This document shows, piece by piece, positions 30,485 through 49,974 of a stretch of DNA of 64,000 nucleotides (its first letter is position 1; the number at the start of each line of letters is the position of its first letter). Made by a program: the position numbers and the translations under genes. The DNA is from Calothrix sp. NIES-4101 (GTDB lineage: Bacteria > Cyanobacteriota > Cyanobacteriia > Cyanobacteriales > Nostocaceae), in contig AP018280.1 in assembly GCA_004296455.1 (NCBI GenBank), forward strand, positions 3,968,001-4,032,000. Direction: 5' to 3'. The notes beneath the pieces were generated by a model. The model did no database searches. It had not been told where the DNA came from and worked only from the letters and a program-made list of their open reading frames with translations.

Positions 30485-31393
30485 ATGGCTCTTCCCGACT
30501 ATCAGGAAATCATGCTTCCTTTACTAGGTTTTGTTGCCGATGGAGGGGAACATTCTTCTCGTGAGTCTGTTGAGCGGATGGCTGAATATTTTACCCTGAC
30601 GGAACAAGAACGGCGAGAATTACTACCTAGTGGTCGTCAGTATACTTTTGATAATCGGGTTGGTTGGGCACGCACTTACCTCAAGAAAGCCGGTTTGTTA
30701 GAATCGACCCGTCGAGGGTATTTTCGCATCACGCAACGAGGTCAAGAAGTTCTCAAGCAGAATCCCACACGAATTGATGCTCGCTTTCTGGAGAAATTCC
30801 CGGAATTTATTGATTTTCGCAACAGCAAACCCGAATCTGGAACCGTGGGAGTGGATGAAAATGCCACTAACAGCCAAACCCCGGAAGAACTGATTGAAGC
30901 AGCAATCCAGCAGTTAAATCAGGAATTAGCAATAGAGATTTTGGACGCAATTAAGGCTTGTTCGCCAGCGTTTTTTGAGAAGTTGGTGGTCGAGCTATTA
31001 CTAAAAATGGGGTATGGTGGGACACGTAAGGATGCTGGGCAGACTGTTGGGCAAAGTGGTGATGGTGGGGTAGACGGTATTATCAATGAGGATCGATTGG
31101 GGCTAGATGTAATTTATATTCAGGCAAAGCGTTGGGACAATTCTGTCAGTCGTCCAGAGGTGCAGAAGTTTGCTGGTAGTTTGCAGGGTTTGCGCGCACG
31201 CAAGGGGATTTTCATCACGACTTCTAGTTTTACTAGGGAAGCCAAGGATTTTGTGGAAAAAATTGATAGTCGGATTATTCTGATTGATGGCGATCGCCTT
31301 ACCAAATTGATGATTGAAAATAATGTTGGTGTGACAGCACTTGCGGCTTATGAAATCAAGAAAATCGATAGCGATTTTTTTAGCGATACTTGA
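30485..31393 (+). CDS. mrr: Mrr-type restriction endonuclease
   Basis: 302 residues from the ATG at 30485 (MALPDYQEIMLPLLGFVADG), where Mrr proteins normally begin; the frame is open for 23 codons more upstream. N-terminal Mrr_N winged helix (HSSRESVERMAEYFTLTEQE, VGWARTYLKKAGLLESTRRG), linker, and a C-terminal PD-(D/E)XK domain: FFEKLVVELLLKMGYGG, GDGGVDGIINED and DVIYIQAKRWD with the D...Q-A-K active site. Mrr is a type IV enzyme that cuts DNA carrying foreign methylation. It sits at the head of the defence island and is a restriction partner candidate for the methylase at 34757. Confidence 0.93.
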   Translation: MALPDYQEIMLPLLGFVADGGEHSSRESVERMAEYFTLTEQERRELLPSGRQYTFDNRVGWARTYLKKAGLLESTRRGYFRITQRGQEVLKQNPTRIDARFLEKFPEFIDFRNSKPESGTVGVDENATNSQTPEELIEAAIQQLNQELAIEILDAIKACSPAFFEKLVVELLLKMGYGGTRKDAGQTVGQSGDGGVDGIINEDRLGLDVIYIQAKRWDNSVSRPEVQKFAGSLQGLRARKGIFITTSSFTREAKDFVEKIDSRIILIDGDRLTKLMIENNVGVTALAAYEIKKIDSDFFSDT

Positions 31394-31769
31394 ATATTAA
31401 ATCTCTAGCTTCATTTCCTTCAAGGAAGATAGTTTGAATTGATGTTAAATATTGATTTTGGTTTTATTTAGTAGTACTTTTGTCCTGTAAATCAAATGAT
31501 TTGGTTTTGCGAATTTCCCAAAAATCCCCACATAAAACAACTTCGCAAAAATGCTGAAAGCACGTAACTGACAAATGAAAAATCGTCAGTGATAACCATC
31601 ACTATTTATTTCCCAAAAAATCACATCTGGTAATCATTATTTTTTCCGGACGTTTTGTTAAAGATATGTTAAAAACAGTAAAACAACTTACGTGATTTTA
31701 CTGTGGCTTCGAGTGAGTTAGAAAACATTATAGTTTTTCTGCTACTTTGGGCTGCTGTTGTATCCACCT
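31394..31769 (+). promoter_or_regulatory. Upstream region of the defence operon with two inverted repeats
   Basis: ACTGAC / GTCAGT at 31567-31572 and 31585-31590, and a perfect 9-bp inverted repeat ACAGTAAAA / TTTTACTGT at 31675-31683 and 31696-31704, 66-95 bases before the helicase start. The second is a good operator candidate. No regulator gene is encoded in the operon, so the controlling protein must lie elsewhere. No gene in the 375 bases. Confidence 0.45.
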
Positions 31770-34661
31770 ATGACAGACACCCTTGATCGAAAAGAGAAGC
31801 AAACAATACAACCAGGTTCCATTGTGCGTTGCCGCGATCGCCAATGGGTAGTTTTGCCTTCAGAAAATTTAGATGTAGTGCGGTTGCGTTCTTTATCTGG
31901 GAATGAGGACGAAATTACAGGTATTTACCGACATTTATTGGAGACGAATCTGGAAGCGATCGCATCTGCAAGTTTTCCCTTGCCATCAGCGAATCAAGTT
32001 AAAGATCATGCCGCAGCACATGTGTTGATGGATGCAGCGCGGTTGTTGCTGCGAAGCGGTGCGGGACCTTTTCGCTGTTTAGGACGGTTATCGCTGCGTC
32101 CTCGTCCCTATCAATTAGTGCCGTTGTTAATGGCATTGCGGTTGGAAACGCTGCGGTTATTGATTGCAGACGATGTTGGCATCGGTAAAACTATTGAAGC
32201 TGGATTAATCGCCCGTGAATTTTTAGACCGGGGTGAGGTGAAGCGAATAGCAGTTTTGTGTCCGCCCCATTTATGTGACCAGTGGCAGCAGGAACTTAGG
32301 GAGAACTTTCATATTGATGCGGTGGTAATTCGCTCTGGGACAGCTTCTAAATTAGAGCGGGTGGTGCCGGGGGATGAGCATATTTTTAGTTATTACCGCC
32401 ATATTATTGTGAGTTTGGACTACGCCAAAGCTGACCGGAGAAAGGCAAGTTTTATTACTCATTGCCCAGATTTGGTGATTGTGGATGAAGCCCACACCTG
32501 TGCTAATGGAAATAAGAAAAGTACATCTCAACAGCAACGACATCAATTAATCCAAGAAATCGCTGCAAAAGCTGACAGAAATCTACTTTTACTTACCGCA
32601 ACACCCCACAGTGGGATTGAAGAGGCGTTTTTATCGTTGTTGGGATTGTTGAAACCAGAGTTTGGGCAATTGTCGTTGGATTTTCTCACAGAGGAGCAGC
32701 GTAAAACCTTAGCCCAACACTTTATCCAGCGACGACGGGCTGATGTTAAGTTGTGGTTGGGGAATGAAACGCCTTTCCCAGAGCGGGAATCTGCGGAAAT
32801 GCCTTATAAACTCTCGAAGGAGTATAAAAGTTTATTTGAGGATGTTTATAACTTTGCGCGGGGATTAGTAAAAACTACTACTAGTGACATGAGTTATGCC
32901 CAGCGTCGGGGTAGATATTGGTCGGCTTTGGCGTTGATTCGTTGTGTGATGTCTTCACCTGCGGCAGCTATTGCTACTTTAAGCAAAAAGGGAAATCGGG
33001 AGTCGGGAATGGGTATTGGGGAAGATTCTCCAGTAATAGATGAAGATTTAATGAGTTCCTATGTTTATGACCCAGCCGATAGAGAGCAGGCAACAGACGC
33101 AGCTCCAACTATGGTTGTAGAACAGGGGCAAGAAAGCTACGGTGAGAAAGAAAGGCGTAAATTAAGAGAGTTTGTCAAAGCTGCTGAGGCTTTGCAAGGT
33201 AAAAAGGATTCTAAGTTACAAGCTTGTATTGAAACGGTGGAATCTTTGCTTCAGGATGGTCACAATCCGATTCTCTGGTGTCGTTACATTGCAACGGCTA
33301 ATTATGTGGCTGAAGCTTTGCGGCAAAAGTTGGAGAAGAAAAAAGGAGAAATTCGGGTAATTGCGATTACTGGGGAACAGTCAGAAGACGAGCGAGAAAT
33401 TCGTCTGGAAGAATTAAAATCCTATCCACAAAGGATATTAGTTGCGACTGATTGTTTAAGTGAAGGTGTTAACCTCCAATCCCACTTTAATGCTGTCCTC
33501 CACTACGATTTACCCTGGAACCCCAACCGTTTAGAGCAACGGGAAGGTCGTGTAGATAGATATGGACAACCCGCAGAAAAGATAAAAACTTTTTTACTCT
33601 TAGGACAAGATAATCCTGTTGATGGTGCGGTGATGGATGTGTTGGTGCGGAAAGCTGTACAGATTCACAAGACTTTGGGGATTACTGTTCCTGTACCAAT
33701 GGATAGTACTAATGTTTCGGAAGCGGTATTTAAATCGCTGTTTGATAAAGCTACAGATGTGGTACAGCTATCGTTGTTAGATTTACTCGATGGGGAAGAA
33801 TCTGCGGTGGAGTTGGTTCATAGCAGTTGGGATAAAGCCGTCGAGAGAGAAAAAATCAGTCGCACTCGGTTTGCACAGCGCAGTATTAAACCGGAGGAAG
33901 TTCAGCAGGAATTGATGGATTCTGACCAAATTTTAGGTTCCCAAGAAGATGTGGAAAGGTTCGTCAAGTCAGCTTGCGATCGCTTAAATTGTTCTCTCAT
34001 CAATAAGAAACTTGGGAAATGGCTATTACCTTCGATTCCCAACTTCCTAAAATCTGGGTTGGGAGAAAAACCCTTATTGCTGACTTTTACCCATCCCGCA
34101 CCGTCTGGGGTGGAATATATCGGACGCAATCACCCATTAGTGGAAGGATTAGCGCGTCATATCCTTGAGGATGCGTTGGTAAACCAAGATAATCCCATTG
34201 CTGCAAGATGTGGTTACACCGTCACGGATGCTGTGGAGAAGCGGACGACGTTGTTATTGGTGAGGTTGCGTCATCTATTAGAAGCAAAAAGCTCCAAACA
34301 GCAACGCACTGGCTCAACATTACTAGCGGAAGAGTGCGCTGTAATTGGGTTTACAGGTTCTCCTTCTCAACCAAAATGGTTAGAACCGGAGATAGCCAAC
34401 GATTTATTACAACAATCCTCACCAGTTAGTGATACTCCCAAAGTTATCAAGCAGGAAGAAATCGGAGAATTGCTAGAAGATATTGGCGAGTTAGAGGGTG
34501 ATTTAGAGAAATTTGCCATAGAGCGATCGCATAAACTTTCCCAAAGCCACAAACGAGTTCGCTCCATCACCAAAGAAGGAGCAATTCAAGTACAACCCCA
34601 ATTACCTCTTGACATTTTAGGAGTATATATTCTCCAACCCGGAGGGAAAAAAGGCTCGTAG
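31770..34661 (+). CDS. drmD: SNF2-type helicase, DrmD-like
   Basis: 963 residues from the ATG at 31770 (a TTG is four codons upstream). It opens with a small beta domain (PGSIVRCRDRQWVVLPSENL) typical of DISARM-type SNF2 helicases. Helicase motifs: RPRPYQLVPLLMALR, Walker A ADDVGIGKTIEAGLIAREF (about 133-151), Walker B/DEAH VIVDEAHTC (about 236-244), LLLTATPHSG, then the second RecA domain with ILVATDCLSEGVNLQSHFNA and QREGRVDRYGQ (about 589-600). RapA/HepA-like second half. In DISARM class 1 this helicase partners an adenine methylase, as here (34757, 95 bases downstream). It may translocate on incoming DNA. The whole-operon context is the main support for the Drm name; plain RapA-like helicase is the alternative. 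Confidence 0.75.
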   Translation: MTDTLDRKEKQTIQPGSIVRCRDRQWVVLPSENLDVVRLRSLSGNEDEITGIYRHLLETNLEAIASASFPLPSANQVKDHAAAHVLMDAARLLLRSGAGPFRCLGRLSLRPRPYQLVPLLMALRLETLRLLIADDVGIGKTIEAGLIAREFLDRGEVKRIAVLCPPHLCDQWQQELRENFHIDAVVIRSGTASKLERVVPGDEHIFSYYRHIIVSLDYAKADRRKASFITHCPDLVIVDEAHTCANGNKKSTSQQQRHQLIQEIAAKADRNLLLLTATPHSGIEEAFLSLLGLLKPEFGQLSLDFLTEEQRKTLAQHFIQRRRADVKLWLGNETPFPERESAEMPYKLSKEYKSLFEDVYNFARGLVKTTTSDMSYAQRRGRYWSALALIRCVMSSPAAAIATLSKKGNRESGMGIGEDSPVIDEDLMSSYVYDPADREQATDAAPTMVVEQGQESYGEKERRKLREFVKAAEALQGKKDSKLQACIETVESLLQDGHNPILWCRYIATANYVAEALRQKLEKKKGEIRVIAITGEQSEDEREIRLEELKSYPQRILVATDCLSEGVNLQSHFNAVLHYDLPWNPNRLEQREGRVDRYGQPAEKIKTFLLLGQDNPVDGAVMDVLVRKAVQIHKTLGITVPVPMDSTNVSEAVFKSLFDKATDVVQLSLLDLLDGEESAVELVHSSWDKAVEREKISRTRFAQRSIKPEEVQQELMDSDQILGSQEDVERFVKSACDRLNCSLINKKLGKWLLPSIPNFLKSGLGEKPLLLTFTHPAPSGVEYIGRNHPLVEGLARHILEDALVNQDNPIAARCGYTVTDAVEKRTTLLLVRLRHLLEAKSSKQQRTGSTLLAEECAVIGFTGSPSQPKWLEPEIANDLLQQSSPVSDTPKVIKQEEIGELLEDIGELEGDLEKFAIERSHKLSQSHKRVRSITKEGAIQVQPQLPLDILGVYILQPGGKKGS

Positions 34662-34756
34662 TAGCGTTACCCTTCGGGAAGCTTCGCAAACAGCGCACTT
34701 TCTCAAATATCTCCTCAACTATTTTCTCCAACATCTACTAATTATATTTTCTAGCT

Positions 34757-37700
34757 ATGAATACAGTTTTAACAGCCATACAAATCGAAGGGAATATACT
34801 AGCTGCTGATATCACTTCTTTACTATCAACAGGTAGTATTAAAGGGCAACAATCAGAGGATTTTGGATTAGCAAAAACCGACAAGTTAGCAGATGAAATT
34901 GCTACAGCTTGGGGTGATGCTAAAGCTTATTGGGCTGCATTTCAACGCAAATTAGCCCGACTCCCGGAAGACGACACCGCAACCACAATTACCCGCGAAT
35001 GGGGTGTTTCATTGTTAGAAAGTCTCGGTTATAAACCTGTTTTGACTCGTCAAGCTGAAGATGTGGACGGACAAAGTTATGCAATTTCTCACCGCGCTCT
35101 AACTCCAAAAGATTCAATTACGAATTACGTTAGCGAAGCTCCTCCGCAAGAGGCATTACGAACTACGAATTGCGAATTGCGAATTACGAATTATCCCCCC
35201 ATTCATATTGTTGGTTGTCGGTTGAAATTAGACCAACGTCCACCAAGTGGAATACCGAGATTATCAGCGCATGGTTTGGTACAGGAATATTTAAATAAAA
35301 CCGAACATTTATGGGCGATTACTACTAATGGTTATCGTTGGCGATTGTTGCGTGATTCATCTTTAATGACGCGATTATCCTATGTTGAATTTGATTTAGA
35401 ACAAATTCTCAATGGTGAAAACTTTGCCGAATTTGGCATATTTTATCGGCTGTTTCATCGCTCCCGTCTCCCGGAAGATGTGGACGATGCTGATAAATGT
35501 TTGTTGGAATTTTACCATCAAGAAACCCTGCAACAAGGTGGACGGGTACGGGATAAATTGCGGGATGGGGTGGAAGAAGCATTACGAATTTTCGGTAATG
35601 GCTTTATTCAACATCCTGATAACGAGCATTTACGCCAAAAATTCTCAGATAATTACGAACTACGAATTACGAATTACGAATTAAAATTTTATCGTCAGTT
35701 ATTGCGTCTAATTTATCGATTGCTATTTTTAATGGTGGCAGAAGCACGGGAGTTATTATTAATTGGAGAGGATGTTGAGAAAGGGCGAATTTATCGAGAA
35801 TATTATAGTGTGGAACGGTTGCGGCGATTGGCAGAAAAACCGAGTTATCGACGGGAAGGTTTTCAAGATTTATGGCGGGGTTTGTGTGTTACTTTCAAAT
35901 TATTTGATGAAAATTGGCGCGGACAAGTATTAGGTTTGTCTCCGTTGAATGGGGATTTATTTGGTAGTAATACTTTACCCGATATTGATAATTGTGCCAT
36001 TGATAATTATGATTTACTGCAAGCGATTAAACATTTATCTTTGTATGTTGATAAAAATGGCTTGCGACGGGTTAATTACGCAAGTCTAGACGTTGAAGAA
36101 TTAGGTAGTGTCTATGAAAGTTTACTTGATTTTCATCCCCAAGTAAGAGTTAATCAAGAAATATATGAATTTGTTTTGGTTTATGGAAGTGACAGAAAAA
36201 CCACAGGTTCATTTTACACCCCTCCACAACTGGTACAGCAATTAATTAAAACTGCCCTAGAACCAGTAATTCAGGAGCGCTTATCTCGTTCCCAGTCTGC
36301 GGCTGGGAATGCATCCCCAGAGGCTCTGCCTCCTGGTAAAATTGAGGTAGAGCCTCAGAAATTGCGTTACCATGCAGGGTCTAGTAACGAGGATAAAGAA
36401 AAAGCATTATTGTCACTAAAAATAGTCGATCCAGCCTGCGGTTCGGGACACTTCTTATTAGCAGCAGCGCGTCGCATTGGTAAAGAACTAGCACGGGTTC
36501 GTACGGGGGAAACTGAACCAGGAAAGGAACCTTTAAATCTAGCGATTCGTGATGTAATTCAAAACTGTATTTATGGCGTAGATTTAAACCCTTTGGCTGT
36601 GGATTTGTGTAAGGTTGCGCTATGGATTGAGGGCTTTTATAGCGGAATGCCTTTGAATTTTTTAGACCACCGAATTAAATGTGGTAATTCCCTTGTCGGT
36701 GTGTTGGATTTGGAGGTTTTAAAAGAGGGAATACCCGATGAAGCTTACAAAGCTGTGACGGGGGATAATAAGACTTTATCGACACAGTTGAAAAAGCGGA
36801 ATAAAAAGGAACGGGAAAATCAAGGACAATTAACAATATTTGATAATTTGGAAACCGAACGTAGCGAGTATATTGAAAATGCGCGGGTATTGGGAGAAAT
36901 AGCGGAAACGACACCGCAAGAGGTGAGGGAAAAGCAAGCAAGATATAAACAAAGTCGCAATCAAGAAAAAAATCCGGGATGGTGGCGAGATTTTTCGGCT
37001 TGTAATTTGTGGACTGCGGCGTTTTTTATGGGGTTGACTGAGGAAAATTTGCAGTTATTACCCACAAGTGCAGCGTTAAGTCAGCTTTTACGGGGTAATT
37101 CGTCAACGCAAAAAGTTGTAGATGCTGCGAATAAGTTAGCGGAAGAGAAGCGGTTTTTCCATTGGTGTTTAGAGTTTTCCGAAGTATTTGAGCAAGGTGG
37201 CTTTGATTGCGTGTTGGGGAATCCACCTTGGGAAAGGATTAAATTACAAGAAAAGGAGTTTTTCGCTTCTCGTAGTGCGGATATTGCGAATGCTGCGAAT
37301 AAAGCTGCGCGGGAGAAGTTGATTAAGGAATTAGCAAAGAAAAATCCTGAGTTAGCACAAGCTTTTGATGATGCGAAACATGATGCGGAAGCACAGAGTA
37401 AGTTTATCCGCGAGTCTGCAAGATTTCCGTTGACTGCGGTAGGGGATATCAATACTTATGCTGTGTTTGCGGAGACTACGAGAAATCTGATTTCAACTGA
37501 GGGGAGAGTAGGTGTAATTGTTCCTACGGGAATTGCGACTGATGATACTTGTAAAAAGTTTTTTGGAGATTTGACGCAAAAGCAAGCTTTAGCAAGTTTG
37601 TATGATTTTGAAAATAAAGAAAACTTATTTCCTGGTGTTGGGCACGGTAGATATAAATTTTCGTTAATATCTATATCTGGGAAAGCTGTAAAAGTAGCTG

Positions 37701-38785
37701 ATTTAGCTTTCTTTCTTACTCAACCCAGACAGCTAGAAAATCAAGTAAGGATTTTCCAGCTTTCATCTAAAGATATTGCATTAATGAATCCAAATACTCT
37801 TACTTGTCCAGTCCTTCGTACCAGTACGGATGCTGAATTAACCAAAAAAATTTACCAGCATGTACCTGTTGTCGAAAATGAACGTACAGGTAAAAATTCT
37901 TGGAGTATTTCATTTATGCGTATGTTTGACATGGCTAATGATAGCGGGTTGTTTAAAAATGAAGATGGTGAAAATTTATTACCACTTTACGAAGCGAAGA
38001 TGTTTTGGTATTATAATCACCGCTTCGGTGATTATGCAGATTATCCAAAAGGCGCTTTGACTTCTCATTTACCAGATATACCAGAAAAACGTTTTGAAAA
38101 TTTAAATTACTACATAAAACCTCGTTATTGGGTAAGTAAGGCGGAAGTAGAAAATAGATTAGCTAGTAATTGGAATTATAACTGGTTGATTGCCTTTAGA
38201 AATATTAGTAATGCAACTAATGAGAGAACCGCTATTTTTAGCATTTTGCCGAAGGTGGCTTTAGCTCATAGTTCAACAGTATTAACTATAGCGCAAGAAA
38301 AAGTTGTTGTAGTCTCATGCTTACTCGGTAATTTTAGTAGTTTAGTTTTTGATTTTGTAACTCGCCAAAAAATGGGAGGAACAAATTTTAGCAACTTTAT
38401 TTTAAAACAACTTCCCCTCCTTCCTCCTGAATTTTACACCCAAGAAAATATCCAATTTATCACCCCCCGCGTCTTAGAACTAGTCTACACTGCATGGGAT
38501 ATGCAACCCTTTGCCAAAGACATGGGATACGACGGCGAACCATTTATTTGGAACAGTAACCGACGGGCAATATTAAGAGCAGAATTAGACGCATATTACG
38601 CCAAACTTTACGGACTTACCCGCGATGAATTGCGATATATCCTCGACCCTGCGGATGTCTATGGTGCAGATTTTCCTAGCGAAACATTCCGTGTATTAAA
38701 GAATAATGAAATTAAACAATTTGGCGAATATCGCACCCAAAGATTAGTCCTTGAAGCCTGGGATAGAATAATTCGTAATTCGTAA
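34757..38785 (+). CDS. N6-adenine DNA methylase, Eco57I/DrmMI/PglX-like
   Basis: 1342 residues. SAM-binding motif I DPACGSGHFLLAA (about 558-570) and catalytic motif IV GNPPWERI (about 820-827) with the spacing of group gamma/type IIG adenine methylases; YTPPQLVQQLI precedes motif I. The C-terminal part is a target recognition region (ISFMRMFDMANDSGLF to LPLLPPEFYT). Size and order fit DrmMI (DISARM class 1) and PglX (BREX). Two STRR insertions, in frame, give peptides with E-L-R-I-T-N-Y (residues 121-146 and about 298-309), and the gene's stop codon is formed by a third repeat (38770-38805). These add low-complexity loops and may affect activity. It probably modifies self DNA so that the helicases act only on foreign DNA. 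Confidence 0.88.
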   Translation: MNTVLTAIQIEGNILAADITSLLSTGSIKGQQSEDFGLAKTDKLADEIATAWGDAKAYWAAFQRKLARLPEDDTATTITREWGVSLLESLGYKPVLTRQAEDVDGQSYAISHRALTPKDSITNYVSEAPPQEALRTTNCELRITNYPPIHIVGCRLKLDQRPPSGIPRLSAHGLVQEYLNKTEHLWAITTNGYRWRLLRDSSLMTRLSYVEFDLEQILNGENFAEFGIFYRLFHRSRLPEDVDDADKCLLEFYHQETLQQGGRVRDKLRDGVEEALRIFGNGFIQHPDNEHLRQKFSDNYELRITNYELKFYRQLLRLIYRLLFLMVAEARELLLIGEDVEKGRIYREYYSVERLRRLAEKPSYRREGFQDLWRGLCVTFKLFDENWRGQVLGLSPLNGDLFGSNTLPDIDNCAIDNYDLLQAIKHLSLYVDKNGLRRVNYASLDVEELGSVYESLLDFHPQVRVNQEIYEFVLVYGSDRKTTGSFYTPPQLVQQLIKTALEPVIQERLSRSQSAAGNASPEALPPGKIEVEPQKLRYHAGSSNEDKEKALLSLKIVDPACGSGHFLLAAARRIGKELARVRTGETEPGKEPLNLAIRDVIQNCIYGVDLNPLAVDLCKVALWIEGFYSGMPLNFLDHRIKCGNSLVGVLDLEVLKEGIPDEAYKAVTGDNKTLSTQLKKRNKKERENQGQLTIFDNLETERSEYIENARVLGEIAETTPQEVREKQARYKQSRNQEKNPGWWRDFSACNLWTAAFFMGLTEENLQLLPTSAALSQLLRGNSSTQKVVDAANKLAEEKRFFHWCLEFSEVFEQGGFDCVLGNPPWERIKLQEKEFFASRSADIANAANKAAREKLIKELAKKNPELAQAFDDAKHDAEAQSKFIRESARFPLTAVGDINTYAVFAETTRNLISTEGRVGVIVPTGIATDDTCKKFFGDLTQKQALASLYDFENKENLFPGVGHGRYKFSLISISGKAVKVADLAFFLTQPRQLENQVRIFQLSSKDIALMNPNTLTCPVLRTSTDAELTKKIYQHVPVVENERTGKNSWSISFMRMFDMANDSGLFKNEDGENLLPLYEAKMFWYYNHRFGDYADYPKGALTSHLPDIPEKRFENLNYYIKPRYWVSKAEVENRLASNWNYNWLIAFRNISNATNERTAIFSILPKVALAHSSTVLTIAQEKVVVVSCLLGNFSSLVFDFVTRQKMGGTNFSNFILKQLPLLPPEFYTQENIQFITPRVLELVYTAWDMQPFAKDMGYDGEPFIWNSNRRAILRAELDAYYAKLYGLTRDELRYILDPADVYGADFPSETFRVLKNNEIKQFGEYRTQRLVLEAWDRIIRNS
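35115..35193. repeat. STRR insertion 1 inside the methylase gene
   Basis: Heptamer repeats AATTACG / AATTGCG / AACTACG flank a core TTAGCGAAGCTCCTCCGCAA. About 78 nt, a multiple of three, so the frame continues. A related core, inverted, is at about 38807-38850. Confidence 0.75.
35650..35682. repeat. STRR insertion 2 inside the methylase gene
   Basis: Tandem heptamers of AATTACG and AACTACG type (about four and a half units) encoding NYELRITNYEL. In frame. Confidence 0.75.
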
Positions 38786-38850: not shown

Positions 38851-38885
38851 AATGCATAATTTTTTATTTGTGATTGGGGGGATAA

Positions 38886-39236
38886 ATGGAAAATAATGTA
38901 GCTATAACAGATAGAACAAAGCTATTTGCCATTAGAATCATTAAAGCTTGTTGTTTTTTGGATGAAAAACCGGGTGTCTATCGTACATTATCAAAACAAC
39001 TATTAAGTTCTGGTACTTCTGTCGGTGCGAATGTTAGAGAGGCTCAATCTGCTCAATCAGACAAAGACTTTCTGCACAAGCTAGAAATAGCCTTAAAAGA
39101 AGCGAGGGAAACACAATATTGGTTGGAAATATTGATTGAATCGGATTTAATAGACAAGCCTAAGTTTGAACCATTGCTCCAAGAAGCAAATGAAATCGGC
39201 AAAATCTTAGTAACTTCAACAAAAAACTCAAACTAA
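38886..39236 (+). CDS. Four-helix-bundle protein (S23/IVP family)
   Basis: 116 residues. FAIRIIKACCFLDEKPGVYR, LSKQLLSSGTSVGANVREAQ and SAQSDKDFLHKLEIALKEAR, ETQYWLEILIESDLI are the family signature. The bundle is homologous to 23S rRNA intervening-sequence proteins and to Avd proteins of diversity-generating retroelements. No reverse transcriptase or variable repeat is nearby, so the Avd role is unlikely. It is flanked on both sides by STRRs and frequently rides with such repeats in cyanobacterial genomes. Function unknown. Confidence 0.9.
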   Translation: MENNVAITDRTKLFAIRIIKACCFLDEKPGVYRTLSKQLLSSGTSVGANVREAQSAQSDKDFLHKLEIALKEARETQYWLEILIESDLIDKPKFEPLLQEANEIGKILVTSTKNSN

Positions 39237-39239
39237 AAT

Positions 39240-39422: not shown

Positions 39423-40450
39423 TAGCGTTTCCTATGCTAGTGAGGTACAGTAACAGCAATGAGTAAACCAATTACGAATTTCATTTAAAGAGACTTTATT
39501 AAAAGCTATTTCAATAGCTTGTGCCAAATCTGGGTAAGTTCGGGCACCAATAGAACGTAGTGTCTCTTTAATTTTTGACCAGCAATTTTCAATTGGTGAA
39601 AACTCAGGAGAGTATGGTGGTAAATAAATTAATATAGCTCCTGCATCTTCAATCAATTTCTCAATATCTTTACCTAGATGAATAGAGCAATTATCCATAA
39701 CAACACAAGCACCCTTCCAAAGTTTTGGGACTAATTTTTGAGAAATAAAAGCTTCAAATGTTAATCCATCAGTTGCACCCAAAATACTATATTGAGCAAT
39801 GAGACCTCTCATACCTATTGCACCAATTAAAGAAACATTTTTGCTACGTTTATGGGGACGTTTACTATACGCCCTTTTTCCTTTACGGGCACGAGCATTT
39901 TTTCTTATTAAAGACAAATTAACACCTGCTTCATCAATAAATATAAGGTTTTCAGGCAAAATGGCTTGAATTCTTAACCAAAACTCTACTCTTAACTTCT
40001 GAACTCTTTCAGTTTCTTTTTCCGAAGCGTGCAATGTTTTTTTTTACCGTGATGCCTATCTTCTTTAACATTCTATCGACTGTTGAGCGACCGATAAGAA
40101 CACCTGTTTTTTGTTCTAAAGAAATACGAATTTCTGCCAACGTAGCATCATTATTTGCTTCTACAATTTCTTCAAGAATTTTTAATTGCTGTTCGTTTAA
40201 TTTCGGTGGAGTTTGCTCTTCCCTCACTTTCGGAGCAATATTTCCTGTTTCTCGATATTGTTTGAGTATTTTTTGAACAAAGCTTAAAGCAACTTTAAAT
40301 CGAGTTGCAAGCTCGCGTTGTGATATTTTATCTTCGAGATAGGTATCAACTATCTTCTGGCGTAAGTCAATTGAGTATGGTTTCATTTAGAATTTTTACC
40401 AGATGCACTACCTGATTAAATATCGTACCTCATCAGACTGAGAAGCGCTA
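39423..40450 (-). mobile_element. IS630 family insertion sequence, complete
   Basis: 1028 bp with 26-bp imperfect terminal inverted repeats: the left end begins TAGCGTTTCC and ends in TGAGGTAC; the right end, read inward, begins TAGCGCTTCT and ends in TGAGGTAC. Flanked by the TA duplication (39421-39422 and 40451-40452) of this family. It contains a transposase in two overlapping frames. The complete ends and intact DDE residues suggest a recent insertion. Confidence 0.9.
39432..40386 (-). CDS. IS630 transposase, two frames joined by probable frameshift
   Basis: The first frame (40386-40009, 125 residues) has the N-terminal paired HTH (DKISQRELATRFKVALSFVQ, TLAEIRISLEQKTGVLIGRS). The second (40034-39432) carries the DDE core: NLIFIDEAGVNLS (first Asp), CVVMDNCSIH (second Asp) and LPPYSPEFSPIENCW (Glu). 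The overlap includes a run of nine A on the coding strand (plus-strand T-run 40037-40045), a classical slippery site; shifting there gives the expected K-K-T-L-H-A-S-E junction of the family. So this is one programmed-frameshift gene, not a broken one. Confidence 0.88.
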
Positions 40451-40452
40451 TA

Positions 40453-42558
40453 TCAGTAACAGATACATTTCTAAACGAACTCCTAAATTTACCCCAAAGT
40501 ATCAGCAAAAAAGTTACCAAAGCCATAAAAATTCTGGAAAAAGACCCAATTTCCGCACAAGGTAACGCGAAAAAGCTCAAAGGATATCAAAATAATATCT
40601 ATCGCATTCGCATCGCTGATTACCGGGTTTTTTACAGCTTCGGACAGGGTTGGGTAAAACTTCTCAGCGTTCGCAAACGGGACGAAAGAACCTATGAAAC
40701 CGAAATTCCCCAATTTGATATTCCATCCCCACCACCGGATGAAGTGATAATTGAGGAAGAAATTGTTAGCATTCCGGTTATTCCTCCTTCAGAAAATACT
40801 TCAAGAAATATCAATGATTCCCCAAACCTCATATCTAATTCCTTCCTAACTACTCCACTTCCCCTCAAATTCAATCCTTCCCTTTTGCAACAATGGAGAA
40901 TTCCATCAGAATATTGGCAGGATATTCTCAAAGTTGAAAATGCAGAGGCAATTTTAGAATTACCAATTCCCGATCGACTAATTGCTCGGATTCTCGATAA
41001 TCTGTATCCTCGTCCCATTGAAGAAATCGCAGAACAACCGGAATATTTACTCGCAGATGTGGAGGATTTAGATAAATTCTTTACAGGTGATATTACAGCC
41101 TTTTTATTAAAACTCGATCCAGAACAGGAAAAATTACTAGATTTTCGTCGTGATAGTGCGGTGCTTGTCAAAGGTGGTCCAGGTACGGGAAAATCAACCC
41201 TGGCACTATATCGGGTCAAAAAGCTGGTGGATAGTGGTTGCAGTGCGATTTTATTTACAACCTACACCAACGCTTTAGTCACCTATTCCCAACAACTGCT
41301 AACCCAACTATTAGGACAAGCACCAGAAACATTGGGAGTTGAAGTCAGTACGGTTGATTCGCTAATTTATTCCTTCTATATCCAAAAATATAAAAATCAA
41401 AAATATAAAAAACCTAAATTTGCCAGCGAACAAGATTGCTTGAAATATCTCCAAGCAGCAATTTCTCAAACCAAAATCCCCACAAAAAATGTCTTTGAAA
41501 GTCGAGTCATCGCTCAAACCTTAGAAAAATTGGGTGTAAATTACCTGCTTCAGGAAATCCAAACTGTAATTCAAGCTTGGGGAATTTCCTCCGTCGAAGC
41601 GTACATGCAAACACCACGACAGGGAAGGGGAACACCTCTAAAAACAAATATTCGCAAAGTGATTTGGTTAATTTATCAAACTTGGATAGCTTTGATGGCA
41701 CAAAATGGACTAACTACTTGGGAACAAGTGCGATCGCAAGCTTTAACATTGGCTTTAGAGAGTAGCACCAAACCCTACCAAGCAATTATCATCGACGAAG
41801 CACAGGATTTATCACCAGTTGCATTAAGGTTTTTACTCACCCTCACCAGCAATTTAAACGGAGTCTATTTTACTGCGGATGCATCCCAATCCCTGTATCA
41901 AAGGGGTTTTAATTGGAAACAAATCCACAGCGAACTCAAATTTACCGGACGAACTCTAGTCCTCAAGCGCAACTACCGCAATACACCACAAATTATCAAC
42001 GCTTGTACAAACATCCTTGCAGATACGGAAGCAGGAGATAGGGAATCTCTCCATCAAGAACCTTCACCCCACCAGGGTGATTTACCAACTCTATTATTAG
42101 TTGATAGTTGTGACGAAGAAATTCAAAAAATCCGCGAATTTTTTATTCGTTACGCACAAAAATTCCGCCTTCCCCTCCACGGAGGTGCAGTATTATGTAC
42201 GACAAACTATGCGGGAAAAACCTACGCGGAAAAATTAACTCAATTAGGTCTGAAAGCCGAGTTTGTCACTGGTAAAAACATCGATATAAAAGCCCACCAC
42301 ATCAAAGTTTTAACCCTCCATTCCGCCAAAGGATTGGAATTTCCCTTTGTGGTCATTGTCGGATTAGAACGGGATAACATCCCTTGTATTAATAAAAACT
42401 TACAGCCCGAAGAAATTACCGCTACAATTAACGAACAAAGGCGATTATTTTACGTTGGCTGTTCCCGTGCAATGCGTGCATTAATGGTGTGCGCTTCCCA
42501 ATCCAATCCCTCAGAATTTGTTGATTCTCTCAAAAGAGAAAATTGGCTCTCAATATAA
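40453..42558 (+). CDS. RelE/ParE-like domain fused to UvrD-type helicase, start removed by IS630
   Basis: 702 codons in frame from the end of the IS630; with the displaced first four codons (39411-39422) the gene would encode 705 residues. Residues about 1-80 are RelE-like (LPQSISKKVTKAIKILEKDP, LKGYQNNIYRIRIADYRVFY, WVKLLSVRKRDERTY). A proline-rich linker leads to a superfamily 1 helicase: Walker A GGPGTGKSTLALYRV (about residue 242), IIIDEAQDLSPVALRF, LVLKRNYRNTPQI, VLTLHSAKGLEFPFVVIVG and RRLFYVGCSRAM, all motifs complete. The RelE part has no start codon now; the first good in-frame start is GTG 40744, so only the helicase part may be made unless a promoter and start are supplied by the IS end. 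Sits in the defence operon; an RNA-cleaving or DNA-processing role coupled to a helicase is inferred. Confidence 0.85.
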   Translation, partial: SVTDTFLNELLNLPQSISKKVTKAIKILEKDPISAQGNAKKLKGYQNNIYRIRIADYRVFYSFGQGWVKLLSVRKRDERTYETEIPQFDIPSPPPDEVIIEEEIVSIPVIPPSENTSRNINDSPNLISNSFLTTPLPLKFNPSLLQQWRIPSEYWQDILKVENAEAILELPIPDRLIARILDNLYPRPIEEIAEQPEYLLADVEDLDKFFTGDITAFLLKLDPEQEKLLDFRRDSAVLVKGGPGTGKSTLALYRVKKLVDSGCSAILFTTYTNALVTYSQQLLTQLLGQAPETLGVEVSTVDSLIYSFYIQKYKNQKYKKPKFASEQDCLKYLQAAISQTKIPTKNVFESRVIAQTLEKLGVNYLLQEIQTVIQAWGISSVEAYMQTPRQGRGTPLKTNIRKVIWLIYQTWIALMAQNGLTTWEQVRSQALTLALESSTKPYQAIIIDEAQDLSPVALRFLLTLTSNLNGVYFTADASQSLYQRGFNWKQIHSELKFTGRTLVLKRNYRNTPQIINACTNILADTEAGDRESLHQEPSPHQGDLPTLLLVDSCDEEIQKIREFFIRYAQKFRLPLHGGAVLCTTNYAGKTYAEKLTQLGLKAEFVTGKNIDIKAHHIKVLTLHSAKGLEFPFVVIVGLERDNIPCINKNLQPEEITATINEQRRLFYVGCSRAMRALMVCASQSNPSEFVDSLKRENWLSI

Positions 42559-42604
42559 TTCGTAATTTCTAGTTCGTAATTTTTAGTTCTTCATTCTTAT
42601 TACT

Positions 42605-45600
42605 ATGAAAATTCCAGTTAAATTACAAGAATTATTACAACAACCAGAAACTGCCATTACTTCCATTAGTGCATTAATAGGGCAGGGATTGGCTTTAGTT
42701 GATTGTTCTGGTGTTGACACTGTGACACTGGAATTTTTAGATTTATTATTTGCCAATATTCCCCAGGATTGGGATTTTATGCAAATCGCAGAAGTTATCG
42801 ATTCCACGACCTTGATCGATACTTTTGCCCTACAATTATCAGATTACATCGATAGGCGATCGGGGCGAACACCAGATAATACGATAAATAGGGATGGTGG
42901 AGCGATCGCTTCCCGTGGGGTAGAAACACTACAAACTACAAATTACCTCGATATTTTTCAATTTCGCAACGAAGTCATCGGTGATTATCGTCAATATATC
43001 GAAAGCTTTCTGAAAATTCGCAACCAAAAAGTAAAAGAATTTGTTGATAAAGAATTAGATAAAGGACAACTTTGGACTGACCCTTTAGTACAATTAAATC
43101 CCAAATATAAAGCAGGTGCAACTGTCAGGGAATTAGTCAAACAAAATATTCTCCATCAAGATAGCGAAAAGTATTTTTGCACCAAAGAGGGAAAACCTTT
43201 CACTTTTCACTACCATCAAAAACAAGCTTTTGAAACTGCTAAAAGTCAACAACCTTATGTAGTTACCACTGGAACTGGTTCGGGTAAAAGTTTAACTTAC
43301 GTTGTCCCGATTATTAACGATTTACTCCACAACCCAGATATTAGAGGTGTGAGAGCGATTCTGGTTTATCCCATGAACGCTTTAATTAATTCCCAGGAAC
43401 AAGAACTGCGAAAATTCCTCGATAATGTCCCCAATACTCATATCCGTGTCGAAAAATATACCGGGCAGGAAAGCTTAGAGCGGAAAACCCAAATTCAAAA
43501 TAATCCACCGCAGATATTGCTTACCAATTATGTGATGCTGGAGCTAATGCTAACGCGATCGCACGAAGATATATTAGTCGCTTCTCCCCATCTCAAGTTT
43601 CTCGTACTCGATGAATTACATACCTATCGGGGAAGACAAGGTGCAGATGTCTCGATATTAATTCGTAAACTCCGTCAACGCAGCCAAAAATTACGCGCTA
43701 CCGATAACAAATTACTCTGCATTGGTACAAGTGCCACAATGTCATCAAAGGGTACTCGTCAGGAACGTCGTCAAGTTGTCGCGGAAGTTGCAAGTAAGCT
43801 GTTTGGTGTAGAAATTCAGGTCAGTAATGTCATTGATGAAACCTTGGAACCTTCCATACAACGTTCTGAACCAAGCATTGAAGAATTGCGAGAATGTTTA
43901 GAAAAAGGTTTACCTCCTGAGTCGGAACGTAGTTTGGAGGAGTTTGAAAAACATCCCCTCGCTGCTTGGATTGAGATGAATTTCGGTTTGGAACGGGAAG
44001 AGGAGAAAAGGAGGGAGGGACAAGGGGAAGTTTACGATATTTCCACAAAGCGATCGCTTAATTATTTGCGTCGTCAACCAATTACTTTGGAAGAAGGTGC
44101 AGAAAAATTGGCTCAGATTTTGAGTCAAGGGGATGTAGATGCGCTAAAGCGCTACTACGAACAATCCTTAAATATCCTCAAGCAGATGTTTTTGTGGGGA
44201 AGTAAAACCAAAGGGTTAGCGTTTCGTTTACACCAGTTTGTTTCCCAAGGAGGTAGCGTTTATGCCACTATCGAACCCCATGATATACGGTCATTAACCC
44301 TAGATGGACAATATTCAACAACTAATAACCGCTTGTTATTTCCCTTGGTGTTTTGTCGGGAATGCGGACATGACTATTATGTGGTGCGATACGATGCCAA
44401 TAACCATACTGTAGTTCCCCAACTACCGACGATGTTGGAAGCTCCTGATGATGATGAAAATGTCCAAGATGGTTATCTCAGTCTCGATGAAACCGGACTT
44501 TGGGATTATAATGACGAAGAACGACTTCCTGATAGTTGGTTCCGGGAAACGAAGAGACAAGGACGGGTAGTTAAGAAAGAATATGAGAGATTTATCCCCC
44601 GCAAAATCTATGTTCTGGCTAACGGTAAAGTTTCCACTTCTCCCTTAGAAGGTACACCATGCTGGTTTATTCCCAAACCTTTCCGCACCTGTTTAAATTG
44701 TGGTGTGTTGCATGATGCAAAGAAAAACGAGTTTTCAAAACTATCACGCTTGAGTAGCGAAGGTAGAAGCACGGCAACAACTTTACTCAGTCTTTCCACC
44801 GTTAATCGTCTCAAACAAGTATATACGGATGAAAAAGCTCAAGCGGCGAAGATTCTCAGCTTTACCGATAACCGTCAGGATGCATCTCTGCAAGCGGGAC
44901 ATTTTAACGATTTTGTTCAAACCAGTTTTCTCCGTGCTGCTTTAAACCGTGCAATCCAGGAAAACCAAGAATTAACCCACAAACAACTGGCTACAACAGT
45001 AGTGCAGTATATGGGTTTATCCCAGTCTGATTATGCTTCTACACCTGCGGAGGTGGGAATTGGGAAACGCAATAACGAAAATGCCTTTCGAGATTTAATC
45101 GAATATCGTCTCTATGAAGATTTACGTAGGGGATGGCGAATTATTCAGCCAAATTTAGAACAGTGTGGTTTGCTGACAATGAAATATATGGAACTGGAGG
45201 AGGTTTGTCAAAATGATAAAATCTGGCAAAAATATCGCCATCCAATTTTACTCCAAGCTACACCGAGCGATCGCTACAACGCAGCAAAAATATTTCTCGA
45301 CCAGTTACGGAAGGAACTAGCTATTGATGCGGAGATTTTACAACCCGAAGGTATCGAACAGTTACGCCGGGAAGTTACCCAAGCCCTCAAAGAACCTTGG
45401 AAAGTCGAGAGATATGAATACTTACATAGTGCCAAGTGGGCAACTACTGATACTAAAAACAACAAATACAATAAATTCAGCATCATCAAACTCACAGCCC
45501 GGAGTAAGATTGGTAGATTTTTGCGATCGCACTCTGCTTGGGATTGGTTGCTGCAACCTTTAACTGAGGAACAGTACAACGAATTAATTGCAGCCTTAAT

Positions 45601-48073
45601 TGGCGTATTGAAGGATGCTGGTTACTTATCCGAGCAACCCCAGGGAGTACAATTAAAAATAAATGCCCTAGCATGGATAGCTTCCCAACTCCAACAAATA
45701 CCCGCAGACCCCCTAACATCGAAACGTTTACAAGGGGATGAAAATACCGATATCCCCATCAATAGCTTTTTCCAAAACTTCTATCAAAATAATGCCCACA
45801 GCATCAAATCGATGGAAGGACGGGAACATACCGGACAGGTGAGCAGTAAGGATAGGCAAGAACGGGAAGATGATTTTCGTAACGGTAAACTTGCTGCATT
45901 ATTTTGCTCTCCCACAATGGAACTAGGTATCGATATTTCCGACCTCAGCGTCGTTCATATGCGTAACGTTCCCCCCAGTCCCGCCAATTATGCCCAACGG
46001 AGCGGACGTGCAGGGAGAAGCGGGCAAGAAGCATTAGTATTTACCTACGCCTCTATTGGTAGCGGTCACGATCAGTATTTTTTCAAACGCCAAAATCAAA
46101 TGGTAGCGGGGGTTGTTGCTGCACCTAAACTCGAACTTGCCAACCAGGATTTAATTAAATCACACATCTATTCAGTTTGGTTAGCACGTACTGGGATGCA
46201 GTTTGGCGAATCAATGAACCAAATTCTTGACTTGGAAGTGGAAGGTTATCCCCTTAAAGGGAGCATTCGCACCCAGCTAACCTTGACACAGCATCAGCTA
46301 GATGAATGTTTAGAAGCGATCGCATCAATTCTGGAAGATAAATTTTGTACCGATGACCTGAAAAAAGTATCCTGGTATTCCCCAGACTGGTTAAAATTCA
46401 CCCTTGATAATGCGATCGCAGCATTTGATCGAGCTTGCGATCGCTGGCGAAAACTTTATAGTGATGGAGTCAGCCAACTAGAAAAATCCCGGTTAATTAT
46501 CGATCGCTCTGCACGGGGAAATAGTACCCAAGAAGAACGGGACAAAGCAGATGCAGAACAAAAGGAAGCTCAACGCCAAATCGATTTACTCGTCGGTAAC
46601 TTACAAACCAAAAATCAAACTCAATTTGAATTTTACCCCTACCGCTACTTTGCTGCCGAAGGATTTTTACCAGGCTTTAACTTCCCCCGTCTTCCCGTTC
46701 GTGCCTATATCCGCACCAGTCCCGACAGTGGTGAATTTATTTCCCGTCCCCGTAGTGTAGCTTTACGGGAATTTGCCCCTAATAACATCGTTTACTACGA
46801 AGGTAGTAAATTCATGGTGACAAAAACTAAAATAGCCGTTGGTGGCATCGAAAACCAATATAACCGAGTTAGCGTCTGTTTTAACTGCGGCTACTTCCAT
46901 CCTAGCGATGACCGGGATATCTGCGAAAATTGTGGTGTGCAAATCAAACCCGACATTAACGGTAACATTGCCAAAATTAGCCGCTTGCTACCAATGGAAA
47001 CCGCAATTACCCAAAGACGCGATCGCATTACCTGTGATGAAGAAGAACGCCTCAAATATGGTTACAATATCACCACCCACTACCGCTATAGCGAACAAAA
47101 ACGCAAAACTGCCATAGTCCACACCTCAAGCGGACAAGCTTTCCTGCGTTTAACCTACAGTCCTACAGCAAATTTATGGCGGATTAATCGCGGTTTGAAG
47201 AAAAACCGAGACGAACGTGGATTTAAACTGGATATTAAAACTGGAGAATGGGGAGATAATGGCAATAACCAATCTTCAGAAAATATCCACTCTGAAGTCC
47301 ATATTTTAGTAGAAGATACCAGCAATATTTTACTGGTGGAACCTATTGGTATTGATGGTGAAAAAAACGAAGCCTTAATTACCACCTTCCAATTTGTATT
47401 GGAAACAGCTATTCAAGCCGTTTATAAACTAGAACCCGATGAACTCGATTCCGAACGACTGGGACAAGGCAAATATTTACTATTTTGGGAGGCAGCAGAA
47501 GGAGGTGCGGGAGTACTTTCCCAACTCATCGAACAACCCAACGCTTTCCAAAAAATTGCCGATGCAGCGTTAGATATTTGCCATTTTAAAGAACCTAAAG
47601 ATAGTTGTGTTCAAGCTTGCTATGAATGTTTGCTATCTTACCGCAATCAATTCGACCACCCTTTAATAAATCGCCATTTAGTAAAACCTTGGCTGGAGGA
47701 ATTACTAGAAAGTAGCGTCATTTGGGAAATTGACGAAGCAGTACGCCAACAACAATATCAACAATTACTCGCATTAACAGACCCAAAATCAGATTTAGAA
47801 AGACTCGTCTTAGCAGAAATTTACCACAAAGGCTACAAACTACCCGATACAGCCCAAAAACTAATTCCCGAAGCAAACATCAAACCCGATTTCCTCTATC
47901 AAAAAGAGAAAATTGCTATTTTTTGCGACGGTTCGGTACACGATAGTCCAGAAAAGAAAAAACAAGATAAAATCGAACGAAACAATCTCAAATATAGCCA
48001 TAATTATCAAATTTTGATTTTACGATATGATGAAGAATGGGTAAATAAATTAGCCATTTTTGCTAGCTTATAA
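42605..48073 (+). CDS. Giant DEAD-box helicase with DUF1998 and nuclease-like C-terminus (DruE/DrmA-like)
   Basis: 1822 residues. N-terminal unknown region, then SF2 helicase domain 1 with FHYHQKQAFETAKSQQPYVV, Walker A TGTGSGKSLTYVV (about 221-233) and DELHTYRGRQGADVSILIRK (about 335). A long insert holds zinc knuckles (CRECGHDY about 583, CLNCG about 696). Helicase domain 2 has LFCSPTMELGIDISDLSVVH and RSGRAGRSGQ (about 1095-1140) and ends SGHDQYFFKRQNQMVAG. Zinc ribbon CFNCGYFH...CENCG (about 1422-1440), the DUF1998/MZB block EAAEGGAGVLSQLIE (about 1629) with CVQACYECLLSYRNQFDH (about 1668). The last 65 residues (PDFLYQKEKIAIFCDGSVHD, then KKKQDKIERNNLK) look like a DUF559/Vsr-type nuclease fold. 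Size and domain order match the DruE signature protein of Druantia; it may also do the job of DrmA plus DrmB. Confidence 0.85.
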   Translation: MKIPVKLQELLQQPETAITSISALIGQGLALVDCSGVDTVTLEFLDLLFANIPQDWDFMQIAEVIDSTTLIDTFALQLSDYIDRRSGRTPDNTINRDGGAIASRGVETLQTTNYLDIFQFRNEVIGDYRQYIESFLKIRNQKVKEFVDKELDKGQLWTDPLVQLNPKYKAGATVRELVKQNILHQDSEKYFCTKEGKPFTFHYHQKQAFETAKSQQPYVVTTGTGSGKSLTYVVPIINDLLHNPDIRGVRAILVYPMNALINSQEQELRKFLDNVPNTHIRVEKYTGQESLERKTQIQNNPPQILLTNYVMLELMLTRSHEDILVASPHLKFLVLDELHTYRGRQGADVSILIRKLRQRSQKLRATDNKLLCIGTSATMSSKGTRQERRQVVAEVASKLFGVEIQVSNVIDETLEPSIQRSEPSIEELRECLEKGLPPESERSLEEFEKHPLAAWIEMNFGLEREEEKRREGQGEVYDISTKRSLNYLRRQPITLEEGAEKLAQILSQGDVDALKRYYEQSLNILKQMFLWGSKTKGLAFRLHQFVSQGGSVYATIEPHDIRSLTLDGQYSTTNNRLLFPLVFCRECGHDYYVVRYDANNHTVVPQLPTMLEAPDDDENVQDGYLSLDETGLWDYNDEERLPDSWFRETKRQGRVVKKEYERFIPRKIYVLANGKVSTSPLEGTPCWFIPKPFRTCLNCGVLHDAKKNEFSKLSRLSSEGRSTATTLLSLSTVNRLKQVYTDEKAQAAKILSFTDNRQDASLQAGHFNDFVQTSFLRAALNRAIQENQELTHKQLATTVVQYMGLSQSDYASTPAEVGIGKRNNENAFRDLIEYRLYEDLRRGWRIIQPNLEQCGLLTMKYMELEEVCQNDKIWQKYRHPILLQATPSDRYNAAKIFLDQLRKELAIDAEILQPEGIEQLRREVTQALKEPWKVERYEYLHSAKWATTDTKNNKYNKFSIIKLTARSKIGRFLRSHSAWDWLLQPLTEEQYNELIAALIGVLKDAGYLSEQPQGVQLKINALAWIASQLQQIPADPLTSKRLQGDENTDIPINSFFQNFYQNNAHSIKSMEGREHTGQVSSKDRQEREDDFRNGKLAALFCSPTMELGIDISDLSVVHMRNVPPSPANYAQRSGRAGRSGQEALVFTYASIGSGHDQYFFKRQNQMVAGVVAAPKLELANQDLIKSHIYSVWLARTGMQFGESMNQILDLEVEGYPLKGSIRTQLTLTQHQLDECLEAIASILEDKFCTDDLKKVSWYSPDWLKFTLDNAIAAFDRACDRWRKLYSDGVSQLEKSRLIIDRSARGNSTQEERDKADAEQKEAQRQIDLLVGNLQTKNQTQFEFYPYRYFAAEGFLPGFNFPRLPVRAYIRTSPDSGEFISRPRSVALREFAPNNIVYYEGSKFMVTKTKIAVGGIENQYNRVSVCFNCGYFHPSDDRDICENCGVQIKPDINGNIAKISRLLPMETAITQRRDRITCDEEERLKYGYNITTHYRYSEQKRKTAIVHTSSGQAFLRLTYSPTANLWRINRGLKKNRDERGFKLDIKTGEWGDNGNNQSSENIHSEVHILVEDTSNILLVEPIGIDGEKNEALITTFQFVLETAIQAVYKLEPDELDSERLGQGKYLLFWEAAEGGAGVLSQLIEQPNAFQKIADAALDICHFKEPKDSCVQACYECLLSYRNQFDHPLINRHLVKPWLEELLESSVIWEIDEAVRQQQYQQLLALTDPKSDLERLVLAEIYHKGYKLPDTAQKLIPEANIKPDFLYQKEKIAIFCDGSVHDSPEKKKQDKIERNNLKYSHNYQILILRYDEEWVNKLAIFASL

Positions 48074-49901: not shown

Positions 49902-49974
49902 TAAATCTTCATTGTATATTGACCTTGGGTCTAAATATCAAAACCCCGGTTTTGTAAATAATCCAGAAAATATT

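Follow-up and report, generated by a model that had tools for sequence, protein, structure and literature searches.

The genome of Calothrix sp. NIES-4101 holds, within the 64,000-nucleotide stretch analyzed here in full (GenBank AP018280.1, positions 3,968,001 to 4,032,000; here referred to as the window), a run of genes whose products resemble parts of several antiphage systems: a DISARM-like SNF2 helicase and methyltransferase, a UvrD helicase with a RelE domain, and a giant DruE-like helicase. Is this a distinct hybrid of DISARM and Druantia, as an original prediction from the sequence proposed, or a system that has already been described? The locus is not a chance grouping of DISARM and Druantia genes, given that its A-B-C gene order recurs across cyanobacteria; it is ARMADA, published in September 2025 by Bell et al. 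(PMC12458937). With good though not complete confidence, we read it as a Type I ARMADA antiphage operon that carries ArmD as an added, optional subunit encoded just upstream of ArmC.

Open reading frame (ORF) and profile searches resolved a single plus-strand gene run at 31.8 to 48.1 kb, with an Mrr gene upstream. Its features are as follows (window positions):

31758-34661, plus strand: armA, SNF2/RapA-like (BrxHII-like) helicase, 967 residues from a TTG start, with an in-frame ATG at 31770
34757-38785, plus strand: armB, PglX/DrmMI-like N6-adenine DNA methyltransferase, 1,342 residues; Eco57I and N6_Mtase domains, DrmMI and type IIG models
37776-38523, plus strand: putative target-recognition region of armB, diverged
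38886-39236, plus strand: four-helix-bundle (23S rRNA IVP-family) protein, an optional neighbor; PF05635, TIGR02436
39411-39422, plus strand: start codon and first four codons of armD, severed by an insertion sequence (IS)
39423-40450, minus strand: IS630-family insertion with two transposase ORFs and a TA on each side; DDE_3 and HTH_Tnp_IS630
40453-40743, plus strand: RelE-fold domain of armD, an open frame without its original start, from a structural model and Foldseek
40744-42558, plus strand: UvrD/GajB-like helicase part of armD, a 604-residue ORF; UvrD-helicase and UvrD_C domains, GajB models, tree
42605-48073, plus strand: armC, YprA/DruE-like DEAD helicase with an MZB (DUF1998) domain, 1,822 residues; DEAD, Helicase_C and MZB domains, DruE models, tree
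47672-48070, plus strand: C-terminal Vsr-like PD-(D/E)xK nuclease domain of ArmC, from a structural model and fold match
30416 or 30485 to 31393, plus strand: Mrr, a separate neighbor of the operon

The six genes that the original prediction had read on one strand (Mrr, an SNF2 helicase, a 1,342-residue methylase, a four-helix-bundle protein, a UvrD helicase and an 1,822-residue DEAD helicase) were all confirmed. Both parts of its RelE-UvrD fusion are present, but the gene is broken after its fourth codon by a 1,028-bp IS630-family element.

According to the main text of Bell et al. (PMC12458937), ARMADA consists of ArmA (BrxHII-like), ArmB (PglX-like) and ArmC (YprA/DruE-like, with a Vsr-type nuclease end), and Type II adds ArmD, a RelE domain fused to a GajB-like UvrD helicase. 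The same text gives C-A-B as the usual Type I order, with A-B preceding C in many cyanobacteria, describes the Type II order as strictly A-B-C-D, and reports RelE-UvrD for Type II only. The window carries all four kinds of protein, in the order A-B-D-C. The predicted coupling of a DISARM-like helicase and methylase to a DruE-like helicase thus holds to the extent that these genes share one operon, but the operon is not a new hybrid; the idea of a distinct new system has to be given up, since all of the genes belong to one system already described in that main text.

To place the locus among ARMADA types, we built an ArmC tree (FastTree, 97 rows), with the Type II operon and the Druantia III of E. 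coli ATCC 8739 as references and the root set on E. coli DruE3, the sole Druantia row. The window ArmC fell within a 67-row cyanobacterial clade (support 100) whose neighbors are loci mostly of order C-A-B. A 5-row Type II clade that includes the E. coli ATCC 8739 ArmC (support 100) was separate from it, and the window ArmC also stood apart from DruE3 in this comparison with a single Druantia row that is also the root. The locus has A-B before C, as in the Type I operons of many cyanobacteria, and an ArmC outside the Type II clade; it shows neither the strict A-B-C order followed by RelE-UvrD nor the ArmC placement of Type II.

The set is also conserved as a unit. A search with ArmB of 386 cyanobacterial genomes gave matches in 163 at an E value of ≤0.001, mostly to distant methylases, and we surveyed the loci of the strongest 30 of these, the window genome included. 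ArmA-, ArmB- and ArmC-like genes lay together in 21 of the 30. Counted here are a decayed locus (G284), a locus whose ArmA is truncated (G056) and loci with C-A-B order. The other nine genomes had the genes split between contigs or widely separated on a single contig (G019), or had only fragments or an incomplete set. The gene set recurs across many cyanobacteria with the A-B-C order repeated. The ArmA product matches Pfam Helicase_C and SNF2-rel_dom and the DpdE, DrmD and BrxH models, and its orthologs in other cyanobacterial A-B-C loci are 60 to 77% identical. ArmB orthologs share about 40 to 75% identity, and the window ArmB has an NPPW motif at residue 822; mutation of N971 in the corresponding motif of E. 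coli ArmB abolished protection, as stated in the main text of Bell et al. (PMC12458937).

We next examined ArmD, which that main text does not place in Type I. A genome scan for ArmC, of which we analyzed the best 80 of 490 loci, supplied 48 cyanobacterial ArmC proteins of at least 1,400 residues after duplicates from other searches were dropped. Of these, 40 had either a D or sufficient sequence upstream; D was present in 17 of the 40, and in 11 of 34 when ArmB had to be in view. Where D, C and ArmB were all in view, D lay immediately before C in every case (17/17). Across 21 loci with both proteins, ArmD and ArmC distances were strongly correlated (r = 0.914, a value reached in none of 2,000 permutations). 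On the ArmC tree, the presence of D changed at least 13 times among the 63 rows scored. Together, the correlated distances and repeated changes indicate that D tracks C wherever it is retained, with frequent loss or regain. A RelE-UvrD tree from a quick search, with several long branches flagged, placed the window gene in a 25-row set (support 95) made up of 21 ARMADA Type I, 2 third-lineage (described below) and 2 other rows. A DISARM-linked set of nine rows (support 99; eight DISARM and one contig-edge case) and the four Type II ArmD rows (support 95, across a long branch) were separate.

We also looked for RelE-UvrD without ArmC as bait, in 388 genomes of the order at an E value of ≤1e-60. 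Thirty genomes gave 32 places corresponding to 31 genes, one gene being in two pieces. RelE-UvrD was directly upstream of a YprA-family helicase gene in 21 of the 31: 12 adjoin a Type I ArmC gene (the window and three decayed or truncated cases, G595, G548 and G488, among them), 2 adjoin a helicase gene of a third YprA lineage, and 7 immediately precede drmA in DISARM loci. One further DISARM case (L100) came from another search, giving eight cyanobacterial loci (L100, L102, L198-L202 and L204). The DISARM assignments rest on DrmA, DrmB and DrmC model hits in L100, DrmA in L102 and DrmMI in L103, and on similarity elsewhere. In a set of 45 collected RelE-UvrD proteins of at least 590 residues, which is not an unbiased sample, the next gene encoded ArmC or a third-lineage YprA helicase in 22, DrmA in 8 and a kinase in 5; three of the others follow a Type II ArmC, two are in C-A-B loci (L048 and L180) and five lie elsewhere. 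Measured from first possible ORF starts, the spacing was -106 to 195 bases before ArmC-type genes and -145 to 158 bases before drmA. Two Pseudanabaena plasmid records likewise have a RelE-UvrD homolog (59% and 56% identical), annotated as a 3'-5' exonuclease, immediately before a giant helicase annotated as a DEAD/DEAH box helicase. The prediction that RelE-UvrD belongs with the operon is upheld in several relatives. Compared with the main text of Bell et al. (PMC12458937), the presence of RelE-UvrD upstream of ArmC in Type I, its presence upstream of drmA in DISARM and its codivergence with ArmC are new. Among the papers listed by our literature searches, there was no earlier report of RelE-UvrD in Type I ARMADA or DISARM; PMC12458937 alone bears on the question, and its supplements and figures may hold cases.

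The RelE part of ArmD (model mean pLDDT, 71) gave its best Foldseek match to Methanocaldococcus jannaschii RelE (3bpq; E value, 6.7e-5), and ArmD orthologs have ParE_toxin/RelE sequence matches. Arg51, Arg53, Tyr57 and Arg58 were invariant in seven of seven sequences, one of them Type II; basic residues in this region serve catalysis in E. coli RelE. The last 133 residues of ArmC (model pLDDT, 85) matched best the homing endonuclease I-Bth0305I (3r3p; probability, 1.00), a Vsr-like enzyme, and a DF and FxDGxxH pattern was found in 15 of 16 rows, so that ArmC carries a Vsr-type nuclease at its C terminus as expected of ARMADA.

Several points weigh against the reading as a Type I operon with ArmD. 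The Type I representatives that Bell et al. name are absent from the ArmC tree, as are BRIGADE and TALON sequences, and its long branches were flagged, so the Type I assignment rests on exclusion from Type II together with gene order. The activity assays in the main text of that paper (PMC12458937) cover Type II only. Of 50 cyanobacterial loci that have ArmB in view, 33 lack ArmD, which is thus not needed for Type I in general, and the correlation of ArmD with ArmC may partly reflect shared species history. The Vsr-type match at the end of ArmC has a weak E value (0.015), and the ArmC end of locus L048 does not align. Lastly, 9 of the 31 RelE-UvrD genes have no YprA gene beside them, and one more is at a contig edge (G153); five of the nine stand beside a PD-T4-6-type kinase gene and four beside none of these partners (G621, G516, G002 and G400), G621 with only 809 bases downstream.

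These solitary and kinase-linked genes, along with the 13 or more presence changes, would also fit a different explanation, in which RelE-UvrD is a free-standing defense or toxin module parked in a variable slot between armB and armC. We surveyed this slot in 50 loci from all sources, some of them fetched because they hold D, excluding loci without ArmB in view or with more than eight ORFs between (uncurated ORFs of at least 70 to 80 residues). The slot held cargo only in 27 loci, cargo and D in 13, D only in 4 and nothing in 6, so other ORFs were present in 40 of 50. Among about 24 slot proteins scanned, several without a match, the cargo included PIN, HepT/MNT toxin-antitoxin genes, a Uma2 nuclease, radical SAM with a kinase-like protein, PtuA with an HNH protein (Septu-like), HEC-05 and a ParA/ParB-like pair. 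This other cargo differs in kind, strand and place, whereas in the cyanobacterial A-B-C, third-lineage and DISARM loci RelE-UvrD is on the same strand as, directly before and often overlapping the YprA gene. It also diverges in parallel with ArmC, and the main text of Bell et al. (PMC12458937) reports that ArmD is required in E. coli Type II. A parked module is therefore unlikely in our view, and the slot is in any case a useful hunting ground for further defense genes.

Some occupants of the slot and some RelE-UvrD neighbors are worth recording in their own right. In the ARMADA operon of Synechocystis salina, a Septu-like pair (PtuA and HNH) lies between armB and armD (L046, 9345-11456, on the contig of L178). 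Four loci (L123, L128, L141 and L149) have two adjacent ORFs, of about 285 to 290 and 240 to 261 residues, placed between armB and armD or else upstream of armD; the first is ParA-like where scanned (L123 and L149) and the second ParB_N-like (L123), L128 and L141 being grouped by size only. In L052/L098, L099, L196, L203 and L206, RelE-UvrD is directly followed or overlapped by a kinase-like gene; two of these partners were scanned and match PD-T4-6 models, and the others were assigned by similarity. RelE-UvrD and the kinase-like gene are possibly a separate two-gene defense module.

Returning to the window as a Type I operon with ArmD, we asked what the insertion has done to it. The element, whose ends were read from its terminal sequences, separates the armD start from the rest of the gene, and the RelE part stays open downstream of it, from 40453. 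The bases before it are identical to those that begin the uninterrupted armD genes of the relatives L114 (Cyanocohniella) and L117 (Nostoc FACHB-892), and the element is not at the corresponding site in these or in L126, the close relative Calothrix sp. CSU_2_0, whose armD region is 94% identical to the window at the DNA level (in this low-coverage assembly, armD and armC are each in two pieces). Because the start is cut off, the operon in this genome probably functions with A, B and C alone, or else produces a truncated ArmD weakly. The insertion could also be taken to mark loss of the whole system, leaving a decaying relic; decayed ARMADA loci do occur in relatives (G284, G595 and the second copy of G054). 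However, armA, armB, armC and the RelE-UvrD frame past the IS are otherwise open and full length, and many relatives keep A-B-C without D, so the loss of D need not end function. We regard a relic as quite unlikely.

Could the locus instead be a Type II operon with an altered gene order? It does carry RelE-UvrD, and two closely related cyanobacterial Type II loci (L093 and L096) are rearranged to C-D-A-B. Against this, neither its ArmC nor its ArmD groups within the supported Type II clades, and separate cyanobacterial Type II loci exist (L092 and L095, 32 to 49% identical to the E. coli Arm proteins), making this explanation very improbable. Compared with the E. coli Type II operons (NCTC 12900 and ATCC 8739), the window shares proteins A, B and C, a RelE-UvrD D and the NPPW methylase motif, but differs in order (A-B-D-C, not A-B-C-D) and in the clades of ArmC and ArmD. 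Gene order is thus not strict among the cyanobacterial Type II loci: it is A-B-C-D in L092 and L095, but C-D-A-B in L093 and in its near twin L096, in which both ArmC and ArmD are broken. A third ARMADA-like lineage (L094, L186 and L192) combines an SNF2 helicase and/or a DrmMI-like methylase with a 1,910-residue DruE-like helicase that is 25 to 26% identical to the window ArmC and belongs to neither the Type I nor the Type II clade; RelE-UvrD is present in two of the three loci.

A DISARM class 1 and Druantia mosaic forming a distinct new system that includes Mrr is hardly credible, even though the PADLOC 2023 labels point to no single system and Mrr-like proteins (30 to 32% identical) lie near ArmC in the distant loci L167 and L176, because the same gene set is in print as ARMADA in the main text of PMC12458937, recurs as a unit in many cyanobacteria, and has no Mrr at the ARMADA locus in any of the 14 other Mrr-bearing genomes among the 30 surveyed. 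On this last count the predicted role of Mrr as a component fails, and we rejected it as an ARMADA member: 15 of the 30 genomes have an Mrr match (G048 and G101 being split over contigs), with Mrr at the locus only in the window. The distant Mrr-like proteins are in C-A-B loci, just before ArmC in L167 (32%) and downstream in L176 (30%).

Among the matches listed, PADLOC 2023 divides the operon proteins among DpdE/DrmD, DrmMI, GajB and DruE models, with no ARMADA model among them, and no NCBIfam match listed for these proteins reaches a defense-family cutoff; the profile check suggested with the original prediction was thus carried out, and gave no single system. Its DrmD-like SNF2 helicase does match DrmD models, but the PADLOC DpdE model scores higher (689 bits, against 330 for the best DrmD model), and the match to the NCBIfam DrmD equivalog (370.9 bits) is below the cutoff of 610. 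As predicted, neither a separate DrmB nor a PLD (DrmC) turned up in the listed matches of the seven scanned proteins (29.4 to 48.1 kb); nor did DruH, a deazaguanine-synthesis protein or GajA.

Set beside known systems, the window most resembles Type I ARMADA, with which it shares the ArmA-ArmB-ArmC set, the cyanobacterial A-B-C order, the Vsr-like ArmC end and a position apart from Type II; it differs in having RelE-UvrD directly upstream of ArmC, with the armD start severed by the IS630 element. It shares an SNF2 helicase and a DrmMI-like methylase with class 1 DISARM, and RelE-UvrD with the eight DISARM loci above, but has an MZB domain fused into an 1,822-residue protein of the DruE-like branch in place of split DrmA/DrmB, and no PLD DrmC. 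We rejected class 1 DISARM membership, with no separate DrmA, DrmB or DrmC among the hits listed and the DrmD score below its cutoff. Druantia III shares the DruE-like giant helicase; the window has a methylase and an SNF2 helicase, and no DruH among the proteins scanned. Dpd provides the best PADLOC model for the SNF2 protein (DpdE), but the window lacks a deazaguanine-synthesis protein among those scanned and its helicase retains the MZB domain. Gabija GajB resembles the UvrD-type part of ArmD, which differs in its fused RelE domain and is not accompanied by GajA among the scanned proteins.

If ARMADA Type I works like Type II, for which the main text of Bell et al. (PMC12458937) reports antiphage activity in E. 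coli, a need for all four genes and nonabortive protection, the domains suggest an attack on phage DNA that is guided by methylation, in which ArmD would be an optional subunit with helicase and RNase functions. ArmB would mark self DNA by methylating adenines within a short host motif. Between the window and L126, DNA identity is 66% at 37776-38523 and 86 to 94% over the other aligned pieces of the armA end, armB and armD, as expected for an exchanged target-recognition region. ArmA and ArmC would bind unmarked DNA and move along it, and the Vsr-like end of ArmC would cut. Gene adjacency, tight spacing and parallel divergence suggest that ArmD works with ArmC. Its UvrD motor would unwind or track along the DNA on which ArmC acts, and mRNA is the probable target of cleavage by its RelE fold. 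More tentatively, RelE-UvrD might be a general partner of YprA-family immune helicases (in ARMADA I and II, DISARM and the third lineage), acting as a DNA-tethered RNase that cuts nascent phage mRNA locally at ribosomes during DNA attack; we hold this to be possible rather than probable. If true, a tethered RNase could explain protection without cell killing, ARMADA and DISARM would have more in common than a helicase core, and a single experiment on ArmD would inform several systems. Type I loci with and without ArmD provide natural pairs for asking what the subunit adds.

Downstream of the operon, a Tn7-like module occupies 48836-57575 on the minus strand:

49975-51543, minus strand: TniQ
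51743-52945, minus strand: TniB-like protein
52939-55782, minus strand: TnsA-TnsB fusion

The region has direct repeats at 49884 and 56096 and inverted arms at 49828 and 56113, and the 64-kb window contains no tRNA. It recurs in the same genome at 95% identity (G000:C1:684000-703500) and in part at 97% (G000:C1:4244000-4263500), with no ARMADA seen in those stretches. TniQ and TniB had no match at 1e-6 among the loci fetched for this comparison, and a weak TnsAB match (22 to 25%) was found in three (L111, L130 and L170). With other copies lacking ARMADA and no TniQ or TniB match at fetched loci, we rejected the module as part of the system; ARMADA may be its cargo in this one genome.

The four-helix-bundle protein was found between armA and armB in four other genomes at 83 to 88% identity, as a 44% identical copy on the opposite strand in one genome, and as an 85% identical copy in L115. 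At the ARMADA loci of the window and of L036, L038, L039 and L056, its 83 to 88% identity across genera compares with 71 to 74% for the neighboring ArmA.

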